A DNA stretch of 64,000 nt from Pacificitalea manganoxidans (GTDB taxonomy: Bacteria; Pseudomonadota; Alphaproteobacteria; Rhodobacterales; Rhodobacteraceae), in assembly GCF_002504165.1 (NCBI RefSeq), contig NZ_CP021404.1, positions 2,108,001 through 2,172,000 on the forward strand, given 5' to 3'. The notes beneath the pieces were generated by a model. It saw nothing but the letters and a program-made list of their open reading frames with translations. It was not told where the DNA came from and did no database searches. Within the stretch, counting starts at the first letter, position 1; every line of letters begins with the position of its first letter. Both the position numbers and the translations under genes were made by a program. Shown piece by piece: positions 1,894 through 36,957 of this stretch.

Positions 1894-2706
1894 TCAGGCG
1901 GCGGTAAAGTCGATCCGGCGTCGCAGGAATTGTGTGGCCTTGTCGGACACTTTGCGCGGATCGCCGGTGGTCAGGAAAATACGTTCCTCGCCTGCACCGC
2001 GCATCTCAGGGCGCCGGGTCAGATAATCGGCCAGCGACGCGGCAACCAGATCGGGCTGCGAATAGACCGACACATCGGCACCGAGCGCATCGCGGAACAC
2101 GGCTTCGACCAGCGGATAATGGGTGCAGCCCAGCACGGCGGCTTGCGGCTTGGGCATCTTGCGCTTCAGCGCGTCGACATGGCTGCGCACCAAGGCCTCG
2201 GCAAGGATCATATCGCCGTCCTCGATCGCGTCGACAACACCGCCGCAGGCCTGCGCCTCGACATCCACGCCGATGGCGCGGAAGGCCAGTTCACGCTGGA
2301 ACGCGCGGCTTGCGACCGTGGCGGGGGTGGCGAACAGCGCGACATGTTCCACCGCAACCTCGCGCGGGGGGGAATTGTCGCCCCACTGGCGTTCGGTCAG
2401 CGCCTCGATCAGCGGAACGAACACGCCAAGCACGCGCTTGCCTTCGGGGATCCACGATTCCTGCATCCGGCGCAGCGCGGCAGCGGAGGCGGTGTTACAC
2501 GCAAGGATCACCAGATCGCAGCCCGCATCGAACAGCCGGGCGACCCCGGCGGTCGTCAGGTTATAGATATCGTCGGCGTCGCGGACGCCGTAAGGCGCGT
2601 TGAGATTGTCGCCAAGATAGACCAGCGGCAGATCCGGCAAGCGCCGCTCGCAAGCGTCAAGCACCGTCAACCCGCCAAGACCACTATCGAAAATGCCTAC
2701 CGCCAT
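1894..2706 (-). CDS. murI: Glutamate racemase MurI
   Basis: MurI is a cofactor-independent racemase supplying D-glutamate for peptidoglycan. The 270-residue product begins [15 protein letters not shown]. It has the two catalytic cysteines in their family contexts: C70 in ACNTAS and C194 in GCTHYPL. Length is normal. About 150 bp separate it from argC on the same strand, so co-transcription is possible but not shown. Confidence 0.96.
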
Positions 2707-27557: not shown

Positions 27558-30500
27558 TCAGCTTACCAGCAGAACCGCCTCGTGCCGTTTCAGCGTCTTG
27601 CGCGCGGCTTGGTAGGCCGTGCGGCCCTCGGCTTGGCGCAGGTCGGGGAACAGATCGAAGATCTCAGCACGCTGGTCCTGATCCATGCCCTTCAACGAAT
27701 AGTCGCCGGGCTGGAAGCTTTCGGTCCATGTGCCGTCGGACAGGACCACCTCGTGGTTGTCGAACATGAAGTGGATGTAGGTCGCCTGCGTGGCGCGGGC
27801 CCGCTCGACCCCGTCGTGGTTCAGCAAATGCTTGGCCGCGACCAGAACCTCGCGCTCCTCGAAATAGAGGCTCGCCCGGTCCGACGCGATCAGCATCCGA
27901 TGGTTGGGCGACACCAGCATGTCCCGTTCGGGCAGGTTGTTGCCCAGCGATCCGGCACGGATCAGCACCGGCTGTAGATGCGGGCTTTGGCGCAGGCCAT
28001 CCCAATCCAGCAGCTTCTGCCCGGTCCAGCGGATTTCCTGAATGCCGTTGTCGCGGGTGATGACCCGGTCGCCCTCGCGCAGATCCTCGACCCGGCGTTC
28101 GCCCATCGGCGTCGCGATGAGCGTGCCGGGGGTGAAGCAAGGAATGACATTCTCGATCTCCTCGAACGTCATGGTGGAGCCATCGGCGAAGTTGACGATG
28201 CCATCTTCGCGGTCGTCCGACGTGTAGGTGATGGACGACACATTGGACCCGGTCAGATCCAGCGTGTCGAAATCATCGCCGCCCGAGCCGCCGTCGACAT
28301 GGTCGCCACCATTGCCGCCAAGGAACAGATCGCGGTCATCGCCCCCAAAGAGCGTATCCTCGCCCTCGCCACCGATGATCGTGTCATTGCCAGCGCCGCC
28401 ATAGATGGTGTCGTCGTCGATGCCACCGTCGATATAGTCGTTTCCGGCATCGCCGTAGATTTCGTCATCGTCATCCTGACCGAAAATCCGGTCATCGCCG
28501 TCGCCGCCATGGATCACGTCGCGCCCGTTATCGGGGCGCTCGTCGGTATCGTCGGGCACATTCAGGCTGTCGGGGAAGGCCGGGTCCAGACCGCCATAGA
28601 TCGTATCGTTGCCCTCGCCGCCATAAATGGTGTCGGAGCCTTCGCCGCCGACGATGTAATCATCGCCCTTGCCGCCATCGACAAAGTCATCGTCGAACCC
28701 GGCATCGATCCGGTCGTTGCCCGCACCACCATAGATGGTGTCGTTGTCATCGCCGGTGATGATCGTGTCGTTGCCGTTGCCGCCTTCGACATAGTCGCGA
28801 TCGTTGTTGGGATCGGCATCGCCCGGGAACAGCCCCGGATAGCCACGGTCCGGCAGCGGATTGGCGGAATTCGGAGCGGCGGTGTTGATGTAATCGTCGC
28901 CATCATCGCCATACACGGTGTCAGAGCCATCGCCGCCGGTGATGCGGTCATTGCCCGCGCCGCCTTTGATGATGTCATCGCCCGCGCCGCCATCGACAAC
29001 GTCATCGCCGCTCATCGCGTCGATGGTGTCATTGCCGGAGCCGCCCTTGATCGTATCCGCGTCGGAGCCGCCCTTGATGGTGTCGTTGCCGGCACCGCCG
29101 TCGATGGTGTCTTCGCCACCTTCGCCGTTGATGTCGTCGTCACCGTCACCGCCCAGCAGCGTGTCATTATCGGCGGAGCCACGGATGTAGTCGTCGCCTG
29201 CGCCACCGTCGATGTAGTCGTCGCCGCCATTGCCGTAGAGCGTGTCGTTCCCGGCCTCGCCGTAGATCTCATCCGCGCCTTCACCGCCGAACACCTTATC
29301 ATCGCCTGCGCCCGCACGGATCAGGTCATCACCTTCGCCGCCATAGATCAGGTCGGCGTTGTTGTTGCCGATGATCGTGTCGTTGCCCGCGCCGCCCTTC
29401 AGCGTGTCGTTTCCGCCGCCACCGTCGATGTAGTCGTCACCGTCGCCGCCATCGACAACATCGTCGCCGCCCATAGCGTAGATCGTGTCATTGCCCGATC
29501 CCCCGGTGATGTTGTCAGCGTCCGATCCGCCACGGATCGTGTCATTGCCCGCACCGCCGTCGATGGTGTCCCGGCCGCCTTCGCCGTTGATGTCGTCGTC
29601 ACCGTCACCGCCCAGCAGCGTGTCGTCATCGGCACCGCCACGGATGAAATCATTCCCCGCGCCGCCATCGATGTAATCGTCACCGCCATTGCCGTAGAGC
29701 GTGTCGTTCCCGGCCTCGCCGTAGATCTCGTCATTGCCCGCGCCGCCGAAGACCTTATCGTCGCTGGCGCCCGCGCGGATCAGGTCATCGCCTTCACCGC
29801 CATAGATCAGGTCGGCGTTGTTGTTGCCGATGATCGTGTCGTTGCCCGCGCCGCCCTTCAGCGTGTCGTCGCCGCCACCGCCATCGATGTAGTCGTCGCC
29901 GTCGCCGCCATCGACAACATCGTCGCCGCCCATGGCGTAGATCGTGTCATTGCCCGAACCGCCGGTGATGTTGTCCGCGTCGGAGCCGCCCTTGATGGTG
30001 TCGTTCCCGGCACCGCCGTCGATGGTGTCTTCGCCACCTTCGCCGTTGATGTCGTCGTCACCGTCACCGCCCAGCAGCGTGTCATTATCGGCGGAGCCAC
30101 GGATATAGTCGTCGCCTGCGCCACCGTCGATGTAATCGTCGCCGCCATTGCCGTAGAGCGTGTCGTTCCCGGCCTCGCCGTAGATCGTGTCGTTGCCCTC
30201 GCCGCCGAATACGGTGTCATCGCCGTCACCGCCATAGATGGTGTCGTCGCCCGTGCCACCATGCAGGCGGTCATTGCCGCCTTCCCCATAAAGCGTGTCA
30301 TTCCCCGCTTCGCCATAGAGGACGTCGTCGCCCGCGCCGGTGTCGGTCGCCGCGCTCGTCGCACCGCCGCCGTCATACTGGGTGCCGTTGCTGTCGCCAT
30401 AGATGACGTCATCGCCCTCGCCGCCCCGGACCGTGTCGCTGCCGGACCCTGCATAGACCTCGTCATCCCCCGCGCCCGACAGCACCGTGTCGTCGCCATC

Positions 30501-31223
30501 CCCGGCCAGCACGATATCGTCCTGCGGGGCCTCGCCGGGCAGCAGCGCGTCGGAATTGTCGATGAAATCGCCTTCGGGGTCGTCCGCATAGGCCGCGTCG
30601 ATCAGATCTCCGGCCAGCGTGCCTTCGACCAGACCGTCGCGGGGCAGCTGCGGCTCGTTGTCTTCGTCGTCGATGCAATCGAAGGCAAATTCCGACAGGC
30701 CGATCGTGCCCGCGCTGCTGCTGCTGTCACCGTCCGTATGGATCACCTGAATCGAGGAAACCGGGCCGGGGATGGTCACTGTCACGCTGTCCGCGGCACC
30801 GGACCCGTCCACGCCGGGATTGACGTTGCCGCCCCCTTCGATGGTGTTGCCGTTGACCTGATGGTGCGAAGTGAGGTTCGAGAAAGTCACCGGCAGCACA
30901 TTGCCTTCGGCATCCTTGGCGATGACCGTCACCCGGTCATCCCAGCCCCGGCCCGCATCGACGTCATAGATGGCAAAGGTCACATTCTCGACCGGCTCGG
31001 AGAAGTCGACATAGGCTTTCGACGTGTTGCAGCCCGGCGATGACCAGAGCACCCCGTTATACCATTTGAACCCCGCATCCCCGTGGCCGTCGGGCGTTTT
31101 CAGCGTGACATCCACGTCGCCACAGCTGGAGGTGACGTCGTCGTCATCGTCCCTGTCGCACTTGTCCCAGTCGGTCTTGTAGTCGTGATCACGGCTGTGA
31201 TGGTCATCGGAACGGTAGGTCAT
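27558..31223 (-). CDS. RTX calcium-binding protein with C-terminal Hint domain
   Basis: The 1221-residue acidic protein is expected to leave the cell by a type I system. Residues 1-210 are a non-repeat beta-rich region. Residues about 240-1010 are nonapeptide RTX repeats (GGxGxDxIx) that fold as calcium-bound beta rolls. From C1029 (CFTPGTLIATPMGERRVEDL) runs a Hint-type domain, related to hedgehog/intein self-splicing domains and frequent in rhodobacterial RTX proteins. The repeats contain a near-exact 153-residue tandem duplication. GAGGATT precedes the ATG. No type I exporter genes are adjacent. A role in adhesion or matrix is possible but unproven. Confidence 0.88.
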   Translation of the reverse strand: MTYRSDDHHSRDHDYKTDWDKCDRDDDDDVTSSCGDVDVTLKTPDGHGDAGFKWYNGVLWSSPGCNTSKAYVDFSEPVENVTFAIYDVDAGRGWDDRVTVIAKDAEGNVLPVTFSNLTSHHQVNGNTIEGGGNVNPGVDGSGAADSVTVTIPGPVSSIQVIHTDGDSSSSAGTIGLSEFAFDCIDDEDNEPQLPRDGLVEGTLAGDLIDAAYADDPEGDFIDNSDALLPGEAPQDDIVLAGDGDDTVLSGAGDDEVYAGSGSDTVRGGEGDDVIYGDSNGTQYDGGGATSAATDTGAGDDVLYGEAGNDTLYGEGGNDRLHGGTGDDTIYGGDGDDTVFGGEGNDTIYGEAGNDTLYGNGGDDYIDGGAGDDYIRGSADNDTLLGGDGDDDINGEGGEDTIDGGAGNDTIKGGSDADNITGGSGNDTIYAMGGDDVVDGGDGDDYIDGGGGDDTLKGGAGNDTIIGNNNADLIYGGEGDDLIRAGASDDKVFGGAGNDEIYGEAGNDTLYGNGGDDYIDGGAGNDFIRGGADDDTLLGGDGDDDINGEGGRDTIDGGAGNDTIRGGSDADNITGGSGNDTIYAMGGDDVVDGGDGDDYIDGGGGNDTLKGGAGNDTIIGNNNADLIYGGEGDDLIRAGAGDDKVFGGEGADEIYGEAGNDTLYGNGGDDYIDGGAGDDYIRGSADNDTLLGGDGDDDINGEGGEDTIDGGAGNDTIKGGSDADTIKGGSGNDTIDAMSGDDVVDGGAGDDIIKGGAGNDRITGGDGSDTVYGDDGDDYINTAAPNSANPLPDRGYPGLFPGDADPNNDRDYVEGGNGNDTIITGDDNDTIYGGAGNDRIDAGFDDDFVDGGKGDDYIVGGEGSDTIYGGEGNDTIYGGLDPAFPDSLNVPDDTDERPDNGRDVIHGGDGDDRIFGQDDDDEIYGDAGNDYIDGGIDDDTIYGGAGNDTIIGGEGEDTLFGGDDRDLFLGGNGGDHVDGGSGGDDFDTLDLTGSNVSSITYTSDDREDGIVNFADGSTMTFEEIENVIPCFTPGTLIATPMGERRVEDLREGDRVITRDNGIQEIRWTGQKLLDWDGLRQSPHLQPVLIRAGSLGNNLPERDMLVSPNHRMLIASDRASLYFEEREVLVAAKHLLNHDGVERARATQATYIHFMFDNHEVVLSDGTWTESFQPGDYSLKGMDQDQRAEIFDLFPDLRQAEGRTAYQAARKTLKRHEAVLLVS
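29022..30182 (-). repeat. 459-bp tandem repeat inside the RTX gene (about 2.5 copies)
   Basis: The same sequence recurs with an exact period of 459 bp (anchor TGCCGTAGAG at 29231, 29690 and 30149). Each unit encodes 17 nonapeptides (153 residues). Two full units and about nine nonapeptides of a third are present. Homology at DNA level shows recent duplication, and copy number may vary between strains. Confidence 0.85.
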
Positions 31224-32221: not shown

Positions 32222-33388
32222 TCAGGAACCGGGCTTGCCCAGCTTCTCTTCCTCGGCCTTGGACTTGGCGGCTTCGGCCACCCGGCGCACGGAATCTTCC
32301 GCACGGTCGACGACCGCATCGGCGGCGGAACCGCTGCCTTGAGTCTTGTCGTCGGCGGTGTCTTTCACCGAACGCGCAACATCCTCGGCGTCGGACCGGG
32401 CTTTCTCACCCTGCTTGCGGGCCTCGCCCATCGCGGCATCCGCGACGCGCAGCGCCTTGGCTTTTTCTTCGGCAAAGATCGCTTCGGCCTCATGGTAGAG
32501 GCGGTCGCTATCCTCTCCGAAATGCTCGTCCTCCATGCGGGTGCGCGGCAGCGCCCCGGCAATGGCGGCACCCACGGCAAAGGCCAGCGCGCCTGCGACG
32601 ATCGGATGCTCCTCGAAGAAGTCCTGCGCCTGATCGACCCCGCGGGAGGCGTAGCGCCCCGCTTGCTCGCGCGCCTCGATGGCACGTTCACGGGCCGCGA
32701 TGATGCGCTCACGCGCGCTTTCGCTCAGGCTTTCGGTGCCTTCGGACAGGCTCCGCGCAATCGCCTCGGACCGATCCCGCACCCGGCCTGCGCCGCGCGA
32801 CACACCGTCCGAGACGCTGGCCCCGGCGGCCCGCACGCTGTCGCTTGCCGACCGACCAGCCGCGCCGACACGGGCCCCCGCATCGGACACGCGATCCCCG
32901 GCGGCGCTCATCTTATCGCTCGCCGCGCTTTGGGCGTTGTGCAGACCGGCGCGGGCGCGCTGGCTTGCCGTCGGACCATGCCCCGCATCGGTGAACCACG
33001 CCGGACCATCGCCCGAAGGCACCGGACCGCGCGGCGGGATGAACGCGTCATTGCGCGCGTCACGACGCCCGGCACGGGTGCCCTTTGCCGGATCGCGGCG
33101 GCTCAGGTCACGGGCGCGATCCTCGATACGATCGGCGCTCGGCCCCTGACCGAAAATCAGCCACCCCAGACCAACGCCGGTCAAGGCGAGGGCCAGCGGA
33201 TTATCCCGCGCGGCGGTCGAAATGGACTTGCCGATATCGCCGCCATGGGCGCGGAAATTGCTGGTGACGGTGCGCATGATATTCTCGGGCGAGAAGGTAT
33301 CTTGCAGGCTTTCCACCGAATGCTTCAGCTGTTCGCGATCCCGCTCCAGCTCGCGTTCGATCTCGTCGGTTGATCTTGTATCGCTCAT
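32222..33388 (-). CDS. DUF3618 domain protein, stress operon
   Basis: The 388-residue product starts with the DUF3618 block (STDEIERELERDREQLKHSVESLQ, residues about 6-45). It has two short hydrophobic segments (NPLALALTGVGLGWLIFG near residue 63 and HPIVAGALAFAVGAAIAGAL near residue 260). Between and after them are long Ala/Ser/Arg-rich helical stretches resembling LEA-like or apolipoprotein-like sequences. It is the last gene of an operon with a holin-like protein and a nutrient-deprivation-type protein, a set common in alphaproteobacteria. Its molecular function is unknown; a membrane-associated stress role is likely. Confidence 0.8.
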   Translation of the reverse strand: MSDTRSTDEIERELERDREQLKHSVESLQDTFSPENIMRTVTSNFRAHGGDIGKSISTAARDNPLALALTGVGLGWLIFGQGPSADRIEDRARDLSRRDPAKGTRAGRRDARNDAFIPPRGPVPSGDGPAWFTDAGHGPTASQRARAGLHNAQSAASDKMSAAGDRVSDAGARVGAAGRSASDSVRAAGASVSDGVSRGAGRVRDRSEAIARSLSEGTESLSESARERIIAARERAIEAREQAGRYASRGVDQAQDFFEEHPIVAGALAFAVGAAIAGALPRTRMEDEHFGEDSDRLYHEAEAIFAEEKAKALRVADAAMGEARKQGEKARSDAEDVARSVKDTADDKTQGSGSAADAVVDRAEDSVRRVAEAAKSKAEEEKLGKPGS

Positions 33389-33389
33389 A

Positions 33390-33812
33390 TTACACCGCCT
33401 CTTTCACGGCCTCGCCATCACGGCGCACGTTCTTTGCGGTCCGCGTCGGCGCGAGGGATTTCAGTTTCAGGTCATTAAGACCCTTCTTGGCCAGCAGACC
33501 GGCGATCACGGCGAAGAGAACGCCCACGATCAGCGCGGACCAACCGGCATCGATGCCCAGTTCGACAAGTCCTGCGACCAGCGCACTGGCCAGCACGTTC
33601 AGCGCGGTCAGCAGGATCACCACACCGGCGACAATCATGCCGACAGCAGCGCCCGCCTTGCGGAGGTTTTCGTCAACCTCGGCGCGGAACAGGTCCATCT
33701 CGCCGCGCACCAGCTTCGTCACTTGGGCAAGCACATCGCCCACAAGACCGCTGGTTTCGCGGATCTGGTGGCGAACACCCTCATCGCCATGGGGAGTATT
33801 GGGGTCGGTCAT
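33390..33812 (-). CDS. Phage-holin-family (DUF1469) membrane protein
   Basis: The 140-residue product has an N-terminal amphipathic segment followed by two membrane helices (about residues 55-80 and 87-108, ending LLAKKGLNDLKL). This is the Phage_holin_3_6 / DUF1469 layout. Despite the family name, it is a cellular membrane protein with no sign of phage genes nearby. Start and stop overlap or nearly touch the neighbours (TGATG upstream, 1 bp downstream), so it belongs to the stress operon. Confidence 0.85.
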   Translation of the reverse strand: MTDPNTPHGDEGVRHQIRETSGLVGDVLAQVTKLVRGEMDLFRAEVDENLRKAGAAVGMIVAGVVILLTALNVLASALVAGLVELGIDAGWSALIVGVLFAVIAGLLAKKGLNDLKLKSLAPTRTAKNVRRDGEAVKEAV

Positions 33813-34399
33813 CAGTAGGCTCCTCCGATCTTGGGCGCGGTGGACGGGCCACCGGGTGCCGGGGTGCCGGTCGCCGGAGCGGCGCTGGCAGGGGTCTGGG
33901 TGATGCCGCCGGAGACAGGCGTGGCGGCGGGCGTCGTGGCAGGCGTGGTCGCGGGCGACGACACGGCGGGCTGCGGTGTGCCGGCCTTGGCAAAGCGCGT
34001 CACGGCAAACCCGGCCAAAGCCGCACCGCCAAGAAACGCCAGCGGATTGCGCCGGGCGAAGTTGCTGACTTCGCTGGCAAGCTCACCGATGTCACGGTCG
34101 CGCACGGCGTCGGACGCATCGGCAAGGCTTTCGGCGATCTGGCCAAAGGTCCGCTCCTGCGGGGAGCCGCTGCGCATGGATTCGGCGGCCTTGCGCAGAC
34201 CGTCCGCGATACCGCTGATTTCCGACGCGGCGCTGTCCTTGGCGCTTTCGGCGCGGCTTTCGGCCTCGCTGCGGGCGCGGGTCGCGGCGTCACGGGCCAG
34301 CGACTTCGCGTCATCGGCGACACGGCGCGCGGCGTTTTCAGCATCGGCGCGCGCTTCGCTGCCGGGCGCGCTGGGGTTTGTGGGGTCTTGATGGGTCAT
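33812..34399 (-). CDS. Nutrient-deprivation-induced-type membrane protein
   Basis: The 195-residue product has an Ala/Asp/Arg-rich N-terminal helix (residues about 15-70) and one hydrophobic segment (NPLAFLGGAALAGFAVTRF at about residue 133). Its tail is Pro/Thr/Ala-rich. It resembles proteins annotated as nutrient deprivation-induced in Rhodobacterales. GGAGGAAATCCC lies directly before the ATG. The 22-residue membrane peptide gene ends 17 bp upstream and an EcfG-type promoter lies before that. Confidence 0.78.
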   Translation of the reverse strand: MTHQDPTNPSAPGSEARADAENAARRVADDAKSLARDAATRARSEAESRAESAKDSAASEISGIADGLRKAAESMRSGSPQERTFGQIAESLADASDAVRDRDIGELASEVSNFARRNPLAFLGGAALAGFAVTRFAKAGTPQPAVSSPATTPATTPAATPVSGGITQTPASAAPATGTPAPGGPSTAPKIGGAY

Positions 34400-34416: not shown

Positions 34417-34485
34417 TCAGGCGATAACGTTCACGAGAAACAGAACGACGACGACCAACCCGACGAGGTAGATGAGGCTATGCAT
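34417..34485 (-). CDS. 22-residue single-pass membrane peptide
   Basis: This short frame encodes MHSLIYLVGL followed by a run of Val/Leu and ends in NVIA: one hydrophobic helix and nothing else. AAGGA lies seven bases before the ATG. It is the first gene after the EcfG-type promoter and ends 17 bp before the next gene, so it sits in the correct place for the first cistron of the stress operon. Small hydrophobic stress peptides of this kind are known in alphaproteobacteria. Its function is unknown. Confidence 0.65.
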   Translation of the reverse strand: MHSLIYLVGLVVVVLFLVNVIA

Positions 34486-34536
34486 GGGACGTCCTTCTTT
34501 CTGGGTGCCGGGGTTCGTCCCGGCTTCTGGCAGGAC

Positions 34537-34561
34537 AACGTCATTTCGCGCCTCGCGTTCC
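34537..34561 (-). promoter_or_regulatory. EcfG (general stress response) promoter
   Basis: On the minus strand GGAAC-N16-CGTTG matches the alphaproteobacterial EcfG consensus (GGAAC, 16-17 bp, CGTT) exactly. The -10 element lies 52 bp before the start of the membrane peptide gene. The operon content (stress and membrane proteins) agrees with EcfG control. Confidence 0.75.
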
Positions 34562-35180: not shown

Positions 35181-35885
35181 ATGTTGACCAGACGCAGCTT
35201 TGCCGCGCTCGGCGCGGTGGCCGGACTGTCCGCCTGCGCCCGCGTCCCCGAAGAGGCCCCGTCGCGCGCGGTGGCGACCCCCGCCGCCGCCCCGATCCCG
35301 CCGCTTCCGGATTTTTACGGTGCGATCACGACCGAGCCGTTTCCCATCCCCGCCATCCCCGAAGGCGTGCTGCCCCCGGAATCGTGGCGGCGCGAAATGC
35401 CCAACCCGTGGCCGGACCGGCGCCGGGGCACAATCATCATCGACCCTGACGCGGCAGTGCTGCATTTCGTGCAATCGCCTGAACAGGCCATGCGATACCG
35501 CGTCAGCGTTGGCGCCGAAGGCTTCGCTTGGGAAGGCACCGCGCGGTTGCAGTTCACCCGCAAATGGCCGCGCTGGAAAGTGCCCGCGACAATGATCGAG
35601 CGGCAGCCGGAGCTGGAACCCTATTCCGTCGCCAATGGCGGTATGGACCCCGGCCCCGATAACCCGCTCGGCGCCCGCGCCCTTTATCTGTTCAAAAACG
35701 GCAAAGACACGCTTTACCGCGTGCATGGCGACGCGGTCCCGCAGGAATTGGGTAAGGCCGTGTCGTCAGGCTGTATCCGAATGTTGGATCAGGACGTGAT
35801 CGATCTTTACGACCGGTCGGTTCACGGCGCCGAGGTGACGGTGCTGCCGTCGATGAAACCGCAACAGGTCAGCCAGCTTTATTGA
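35181..35885 (+). CDS. L,D-transpeptidase (YkuD family) lipoprotein
   Basis: The 234-residue product should form 3-3 peptidoglycan cross-links or anchor proteins to peptidoglycan in the periplasm. It has a twin-arginine-like start (TRRSFAALG) and a lipobox LSAC with the lipidated cysteine at residue 19. The YkuD active site reads HGD (H182) and SSGCIRM (C198). AAGGAGATACCC precedes the ATG. A strong hairpin follows the stop. Confidence 0.92.
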   Translation: MLTRRSFAALGAVAGLSACARVPEEAPSRAVATPAAAPIPPLPDFYGAITTEPFPIPAIPEGVLPPESWRREMPNPWPDRRRGTIIIDPDAAVLHFVQSPEQAMRYRVSVGAEGFAWEGTARLQFTRKWPRWKVPATMIERQPELEPYSVANGGMDPGPDNPLGARALYLFKNGKDTLYRVHGDAVPQELGKAVSSGCIRMLDQDVIDLYDRSVHGAEVTVLPSMKPQQVSQLY

Positions 35886-36067: not shown

Positions 36068-36925
36068 ATGCCCGACAGACTATACGTTAGCGGACTTTGG
36101 CACGTGAGCGAGAATAAGAAGCGTGACGCGAGCCATTACCAAAATCTCCTGCCCGGAACACTGGAGCTCCTAGCGGGCTCGAAATTGATATTCTATACCG
36201 ACATCGTCGAAGTGAGGGATCAGGTTGCTAGCCTTGCAAACCGGCAGCGCATCGACGTTGAGTTCAAAGATGTCAGCATTCGACATCTTCCGGCCTGGAA
36301 ACATTCGCAAGACGCTGTTGAAGCATGCCAACTGATGGCCCTTGACCTCATCCCCAGACCGTCAAGCTTCGGTCGCGAAAAAGGAACTATACATTACTGG
36401 CGAGATCTCAAGGGCAGCGGAGCAGATGCATACCGAAAAATTTTAGCCATTTGGCTAAGCAAGGTAGCGTTGACAACCAGAGCAGCAGAAGTTGCACAAC
36501 AGGAGTCAGTCGCTTGGGTCGATGCGTCCGTTTCTCGCTTCAACAAGAAAAGAAAGAAGTGGAATTTTACAAAAGACGCCGGAAGCTCGCATCAGGTTTC
36601 CCACTTCGGCAGTAATATGAACTTTTATGGAGATAGACTGCCGCTTAACGCCAGTTACCTCGAAGCCCATCCGTCTACCTGGGCGCAGGTCGAGAAAATG
36701 TATAGCGACATGTCAGTTCACGCCCTCCAAATGCCGTATGGGCACGATGAAGAAACGATTTTAGGTCAATGTGTGAAAGCTCATCCTCAAATGTTCCGTA
36801 GAATAGACGGAAATTTGCAGCCGACTTGGAGGATGTGGCGCCAGAGTATCTTAAAAAAACCAGCAAACACAGCTGGTACCCGAGGCCGGACTCGAACCGG
36901 CACGCCTTGCGGCGGGGGATTTTGA
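36068..36925 (+). CDS. HtrL/WlaTC-like glycosyltransferase-type protein, low GC, 3' end inside tRNA-Leu
   Basis: The 285-residue frame resembles HtrL_YibB / WlaTC-type proteins, thought to be glycosyltransferases. Weak landmarks are LPGTLELLAGSKLIFYTD near the start, AWVDASVSRF in the middle, and GHDEETILGQC late. The match is by pattern only. Base composition (about half A+T) and codons (AAA, ATA, TTA) differ sharply from the surroundings, suggesting transfer. The last 20-odd codons are the antisense of the tRNA terminator and tRNA 3' half, so the native C-terminus has probably been lost or replaced. Confidence 0.45.
   Translation: MPDRLYVSGLWHVSENKKRDASHYQNLLPGTLELLAGSKLIFYTDIVEVRDQVASLANRQRIDVEFKDVSIRHLPAWKHSQDAVEACQLMALDLIPRPSSFGREKGTIHYWRDLKGSGADAYRKILAIWLSKVALTTRAAEVAQQESVAWVDASVSRFNKKRKKWNFTKDAGSSHQVSHFGSNMNFYGDRLPLNASYLEAHPSTWAQVEKMYSDMSVHALQMPYGHDEETILGQCVKAHPQMFRRIDGNLQPTWRMWRQSILKKPANTAGTRGRTRTGTPCGGGF
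36853..36876 (-). terminator. Rho-independent terminator of tRNA-Leu
   Basis: On the minus strand CCAGC-TGTGTTT-GCTGG is followed by seven T residues. The first three bases of the stem are the CCA end of the tRNA. Confidence 0.85.
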
Positions 36926-36957
36926 ATCCCCTGCGTCTACCATTCCGCCACTCGGGC
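36874..36957 (-). tRNA. tRNA-Leu (anticodon CAA)
   Basis: The 84-nt gene folds as a class II tRNA. The acceptor pairs GCCCGAG with CTCGGGT. The anticodon stem GGGGA/TCCCC has loop TTCAAAA, giving anticodon CAA. A long variable arm (CGCCGCAAGGCG) and T-arm GCCGG-TTCGAGT-CCGGC follow, and CCA is encoded. Its 3' end overlaps the foreign-looking plus-strand gene. tRNA 3' ends are common integration sites. Confidence 0.95.

Follow-up and report, generated by a model that had tools for sequence, protein, structure and literature searches.

Organisation of the locus

The window (the whole 64,000-nucleotide stretch analysed here, positions 2,108,001 to 2,172,000 of contig NZ_CP021404.1 of Pacificitalea manganoxidans) carries on its minus strand a very short open reading frame (ORF), which lies between a promoter motif of the EcfG type and three protein genes. 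EcfG controls the general stress response (GSR) of Alphaproteobacteria. In the direction of reading, the features are:

34536..34561, minus strand: EcfG-type promoter motif GGAAC-N16-CGTTG, GGAACGCGAGGCGCGAAATGACGTTG; the only exact match in the window, recurring 5' of homologous peptides
34492..34498, minus strand: ribosome-binding site AGAAGGA, 6 nt 5' of the start codon, read from the sequence
34417..34485, minus strand: 22-aa hydrophobic peptide MHSLIYLVGLVVVVLFLVNVIA, by translation from ATG to TGA (22 codons plus stop); member of a conserved family
33812..34399, minus strand: 195-aa 'nutrient deprivation-induced'-type protein, with its ATG 17 bp past the peptide stop
33390..33812, minus strand: PF07332 holin-superfamily-like membrane protein, 140 aa (Pfam E 2.6e-27)
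32222..33388, minus strand: DUF3618 protein, 388 aa (Pfam E 5.6e-10)

The initial annotation had described a good ribosome-binding site and a 22-residue frame ending 17 bp short of a nutrient-deprivation-type gene, and both are exactly as stated in the sequence. The single hydrophobic helix it had claimed corresponds to one hydrophobic segment of membrane-span length at positions 4-18, and the mean hydropathy of the window peptide is 2.49. The exact promoter motif is also present, but its distance to the frame had been given as 52 bp, while the ATG at 34485 is 50 bp from the last base of CGTTG. A scan for sigma-70-type promoters found none on either strand. The 195-aa protein has no Pfam match above cut-off; in Rhizobium leguminosarum the gene in its position beside the holin is annotated as 'nutrient deprivation-induced protein'. 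Farther along the minus strand (27558-31223) lies a 1221-aa repeat-rich protein, matched below their cut-offs by RTX and calcium-binding repeat models. Upstream of the peptide locus there is a YkuD-type L,D-transpeptidase gene (35181-35885, plus strand) and, farther off, tRNA-Leu(caa) (36874-36957, minus strand).

A conserved family of short hydrophobic peptides

A lack of conservation in relatives had been named beforehand as refuting the proposal; the frame turns out to be kept as a protein in many genera. A search with the single sequence gave matches at E up to 1 in 16 of 121 genomes. These relatives, together with four loci reached independently via the holin gene (one of which, L051, has the same sequence as L049), were combined into an alignment of 21 sequences, in which Tyr6 and Gly9 are invariant. 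The resulting profile found relatives in 57 of the 248 genera sampled in the family (one genome per genus), in 20 of 289 genomes sampled across the class and in 30 of 299 sampled across the phylum, nine of the latter outside the class.

The fetched loci, which come mostly from genomes preselected by a peptide match and for the phylum search comprise 20 stretches covering part of the listed places, yielded 117 genes for 114 distinct peptides of 21-25 aa (24 residues in 80, 22 in 30, 25 in three and 21 in one); L157, L206 and L230 have no peptide by our scoring and are outside the denominators. Gly9 is present in all 114 peptides, Val12 in 113 and Tyr or Trp at position 6 in 113. Positions 4-18 consist almost wholly of I, L, V, F, A, G and Y, with only two or three residues ahead of this hydrophobic segment, and purine-rich sites precede most homologues.

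Across these peptides mean pN is 0.27 against pS of 0.62, for genes collected by similarity at the protein level, a route that favours low pN. For eight peptides that were reached via the holin gene or lie in the window itself, pN is 0.31 against 0.54, and lower in 26 of 28 pairs. No helical face of conservation was significant at 100 degrees per residue (p 0.62). No model in Pfam or NCBIfam matches the peptide or the family consensus, and tblastn of the 24-residue consensus found nothing on plasmids, in a search where a query of this kind is probably masked by the low-complexity filter. Plasmid loci do carry the peptide in Gemmobacter aquarius, Rhodobacteraceae bacterium SC52 and Mesorhizobium ciceri, where the gene table, itself incomplete, is blank. 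The MHSLIYLVGLVVVVLFLVNVIA ORF is thus very probably a real gene, and we describe the family as microproteins of 21-25 residues predicted to insert as a single span in the inner membrane.

Promoter motif upstream of the peptide

Taken alone, the motif in the window is weak evidence: one exact site is seen against 0.16 expected, at least one appears in 13 of 100 shuffles, and counts of the looser pattern GGAAC-N15..18-CGTT over the entire genome (109, against 152 for the reversed-pattern control) show no enrichment. What makes it significant is its recurrence 5' of homologous peptides. The strict pattern GGAAC-N16/17-YGTT lies within 150 nt upstream at 40 of 92 loci, compared with 0.17 in shuffles, none downstream, none in distant and three in antisense controls. 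The EcfG motif of Sphingomonas melonis is published as GGAAC-N17-20-GTT (PMC6599016), which the peptide's motif fits in sequence, spacing and position. Narrowed to N17-18 and to the same 150 nt upstream, this published-type motif is found at 65 of 111 loci, with GGAAC 48 to 110 nt 5' of the start, against 0.41 in shuffles, two downstream, none distant and six antisense. Second copies of tandem pairs were excluded from both sets.

The motif signal tracks the sigma factor. Two of nine loci have the motif in those genomes of the family that lack NepR (G441, at 92% completeness, and G482, which is 64% complete and has a strong PhyR match). In the other alphaproteobacterial genomes 63 of 93 loci have it and 30 do not, and none of eight has it outside the class. 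We consider it very likely that the peptide is EcfG-regulated in this genome, and for the family as a whole the inferred link to stress is strong.

Association with the PhyR/NepR/EcfG response

The genome of the window has a canonical phyR / nepR-ecfG locus (NepR E 6.5e-15, PhyR sigma2 E 7.6e-25), in which an EcfG-like ECF sigma frame adjoins nepR and the phyR-nepR region bears EcfG-type motifs on each strand, so that the genome encodes the three components of the known EcfG/PhyR/NepR system. In the family sample NepR is found in 49 of the 57 genomes with the peptide and in 61 of the 191 without it (odds ratio 13, p 2e-13; such p-values overstate independence because the genomes are related, an effect that sampling one genome per genus softens without removing it). 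The class sample gives 17 of 20 carriers versus 31 of 269 non-carriers. Carriage of DUF3618 is similarly associated, with NepR in 45 of 47 DUF3618 genomes versus 65 of 201 others; among DUF3618-negative genomes NepR still accompanies the peptide, in 21 of 29 carriers versus 44 of 172 non-carriers.

The three NepR-less carriers of the class sample have strong PhyR sigma2 matches. Among the eight of the family sample, a PhyR-type match exists in three and none in five. Controls lacking both NepR and the peptide have PF22029 matches in four of eight cases, one of them below the family cut-off, and an ECF sigma factor is likewise picked up by this model (E 8.8e-10); weak PF22029 hits are therefore no proof of PhyR. 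Carriers outside the class have PF22029 matches in six of nine cases, two of them strong. Exclusive dependence on EcfG can be dismissed, given the eight motif-less loci outside the class and the five carriers with neither NepR nor a PhyR match.

The initial annotation had proposed the peptide as an overlooked member of the general stress response. This proposal is supported by the conserved frame, by the motif at most loci and by the prevalence of NepR genomes among carriers, and the peptide is very probably an overlooked stress gene, with its family spread across many alphaproteobacteria.

Genomic contexts

The peptide heads an NDI-holin-DUF3618 operon, as in the window, at 16 of 110 loci. 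At 18 it lies immediately before a membrane protein of ~300 aa with no Pfam or NCBIfam family, and at 15 it shares the strand of the ATP synthase operon and lies upstream of its atpI/atpB genes. The other 61 loci fall outside these three recurrent contexts; genes recurring nearby include CsbD, DUF892, BrkB/YihY and ECF sigma factors (the latter at 7/110 loci). In the atpI/atpB group (L120, L121, L122, L123, L125, L126, L127, L139, L142, L143, L151, L161, L169, L178 and L180) the peptide often follows a drug/metabolite-transporter-like gene. The peptide is thus a modular unit, found more often outside the NDI-holin-DUF3618 operon than inside it.

The operon was also approached from its holin gene, which gave 20 operon loci. 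Here the motif occurs upstream at 15, downstream at one and antisense at seven (with divergent genes in some); L055 and L242, whose motif sites are identical, are probably near-duplicates. The initial annotation had suggested looking for the peptide upstream of homologous operons; it is there in seven of the 20 (L050, L051, L054, L056, L244, L245 and L246) and missing from the others. With the motif at 15/20 and the peptide at 7/20, the operon appears to belong to the stress regulon whether or not the peptide is there. The operon had been called a stress operon, and the near-confinement of DUF3618 to NepR genomes agrees with this, since it gives the operon the appearance of a GSR-type unit. 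The notion that the peptide is an obligatory part of the DUF3618 operon does not survive these counts (16/110 and 7/20).

Possible role of the peptide

What does the peptide do then? We favour, with a probability of roughly 0.55, the reading that in most carriers it is a conserved single-span microprotein of the EcfG/PhyR/NepR response, packing against a membrane partner. Stress would release EcfG, allowing transcription from the GGAAC-N16-CGTTG site. The peptide, as the first product of the transcript, would insert into the inner membrane and pack via Tyr6, Gly9 and Val12 against a partner membrane protein. Along with the holin-like and DUF3618 proteins from the same transcript, it may help to remodel or stabilise the envelope. 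Conservation, motif position and NepR co-occurrence are observed; from these we infer transcription by EcfG, translation and membrane insertion. The packing is a conjecture, and we put the partner-protein mechanism forward only tentatively. CydX and KdpF are accessory membrane micropeptides, each a single hydrophobic helix of ~25-40 residues that packs against a larger membrane protein. Our peptide resembles them in being a single hydrophobic helix, but each of them belongs to one fixed complex, whereas the peptide has several different neighbours. Such diverse neighbourhoods speak for a modular component more than for the subunit of a single complex.

The position of the frame, first in the transcript and with its stop 17 bp before the next start, invites the alternative that it acts in cis, as a leader or upstream ORF: its translation would be coupled to that of the stress gene behind it and regulate this gene, and the peptide itself would be incidental. 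The 18/110 loci directly before one type of membrane protein fit such a leader, but the invariant and near-invariant residues indicate constraint at the amino-acid level, and the family precedes several unrelated genes, with most loci outside the recurrent contexts. We regard a leader as unlikely.

Size, hydrophobicity and a stress-type promoter motif would suit a stress-induced peptide that depolarises the membrane and slows growth under stress, in the manner of the type I toxin families TisB and Ibs, and tandem copies of the peptide do occur at some loci (e.g. L126, L138, L139 and L241). However, specific residues are conserved over a wide taxonomic range and the peptide heads operons of ordinary envelope genes, which makes a toxin improbable.

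A further alternative makes the peptide a regulatory membrane subunit of the stress pathway, working in the manner of Prli42. The latter, from Listeria, is likewise a single-span membrane miniprotein with a role in a general stress response, and its partner is RsbR of the stressosome (PMC6614362). The co-occurrence with NepR and the ECF sigma genes near the peptide at seven loci point the same way. The pathway is, however, a different one, and it is the basic cytosolic N-terminal tail of Prli42 that binds RsbR, while our peptide is almost tailless, with hardly any residues outside the membrane span for a soluble partner. The peptide is also present outside the class, and the stress pathway evidently runs without it, since 61 of the 191 non-carriers have NepR. 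A Prli42-like subunit is accordingly doubtful. Equally doubtful is a regulatory or sensory transmembrane element that tunes the response by contacting GSR kinases or other membrane proteins through its helix; it would then be conserved across the class and have escaped notice for being below annotation length. Lastly, brevity and the lack of a family-library match might imply that the frame arose by chance within the 5' UTR of the stress operon, but this can be rejected as highly improbable because the frame is conserved across genera, with homologues in unrelated contexts and constraint on the amino acids.

On the favoured reading of a stress-response microprotein, the family is of practical interest. 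Many genes in EcfG-type regulons are without known function, and a conserved microprotein right behind the promoter, in several operon contexts, is a concrete target for functional work. It further suggests that genes too small to be annotated are absent from the regulon lists in print.

Relation to reported small proteins and additional observations

In the small-protein and general stress response literature searched we found no description of the peptide, and six 9-residue strings of it do not occur in the papers covered. SEP6 of Sinorhizobium meliloti, a protein of under 30 aa with a predicted transmembrane helix, is reported to be found mainly in the pellet fraction, and its small ORF is conserved in Hyphomicrobiales (PMC10117765). 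Compared by description only, it is similarly short with a predicted membrane helix, and may or may not be a member of the family. In the same organism most RpoE2-dependent protein genes are without predicted function, and RpoE2-dependent intergenic regions and new ORFs are also reported (PMC3616915), some of which could be genes of this kind. Anonymous entries of the family may likewise exist among the 965 million small ORFs of a catalogue whose predictions start at a length of 30 nucleotides (PMC11364881).

Two further arrangements were seen at the fetched loci. L046 contains (2566-2637, plus strand) a second conserved hydrophobic peptide of 22-25 aa, MPALIAWLLGAPLLVVIIIALLL, with a ribosome-binding site. 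This peptide or close variants of it also occur in L048, L068, L085, L105 and L132, and three of the loci (L046, L048, L132) have it ~1 kb downstream from the first peptide, past the ~300-aa membrane protein. On plasmid pSC52_2 of Rhodobacteraceae bacterium SC52 (L245:163-1776) a sigma factor, a short regulator and a response regulator adjoin the peptide-holin-DUF3618 operon, as if a stress switch and the operon had travelled together on the plasmid.
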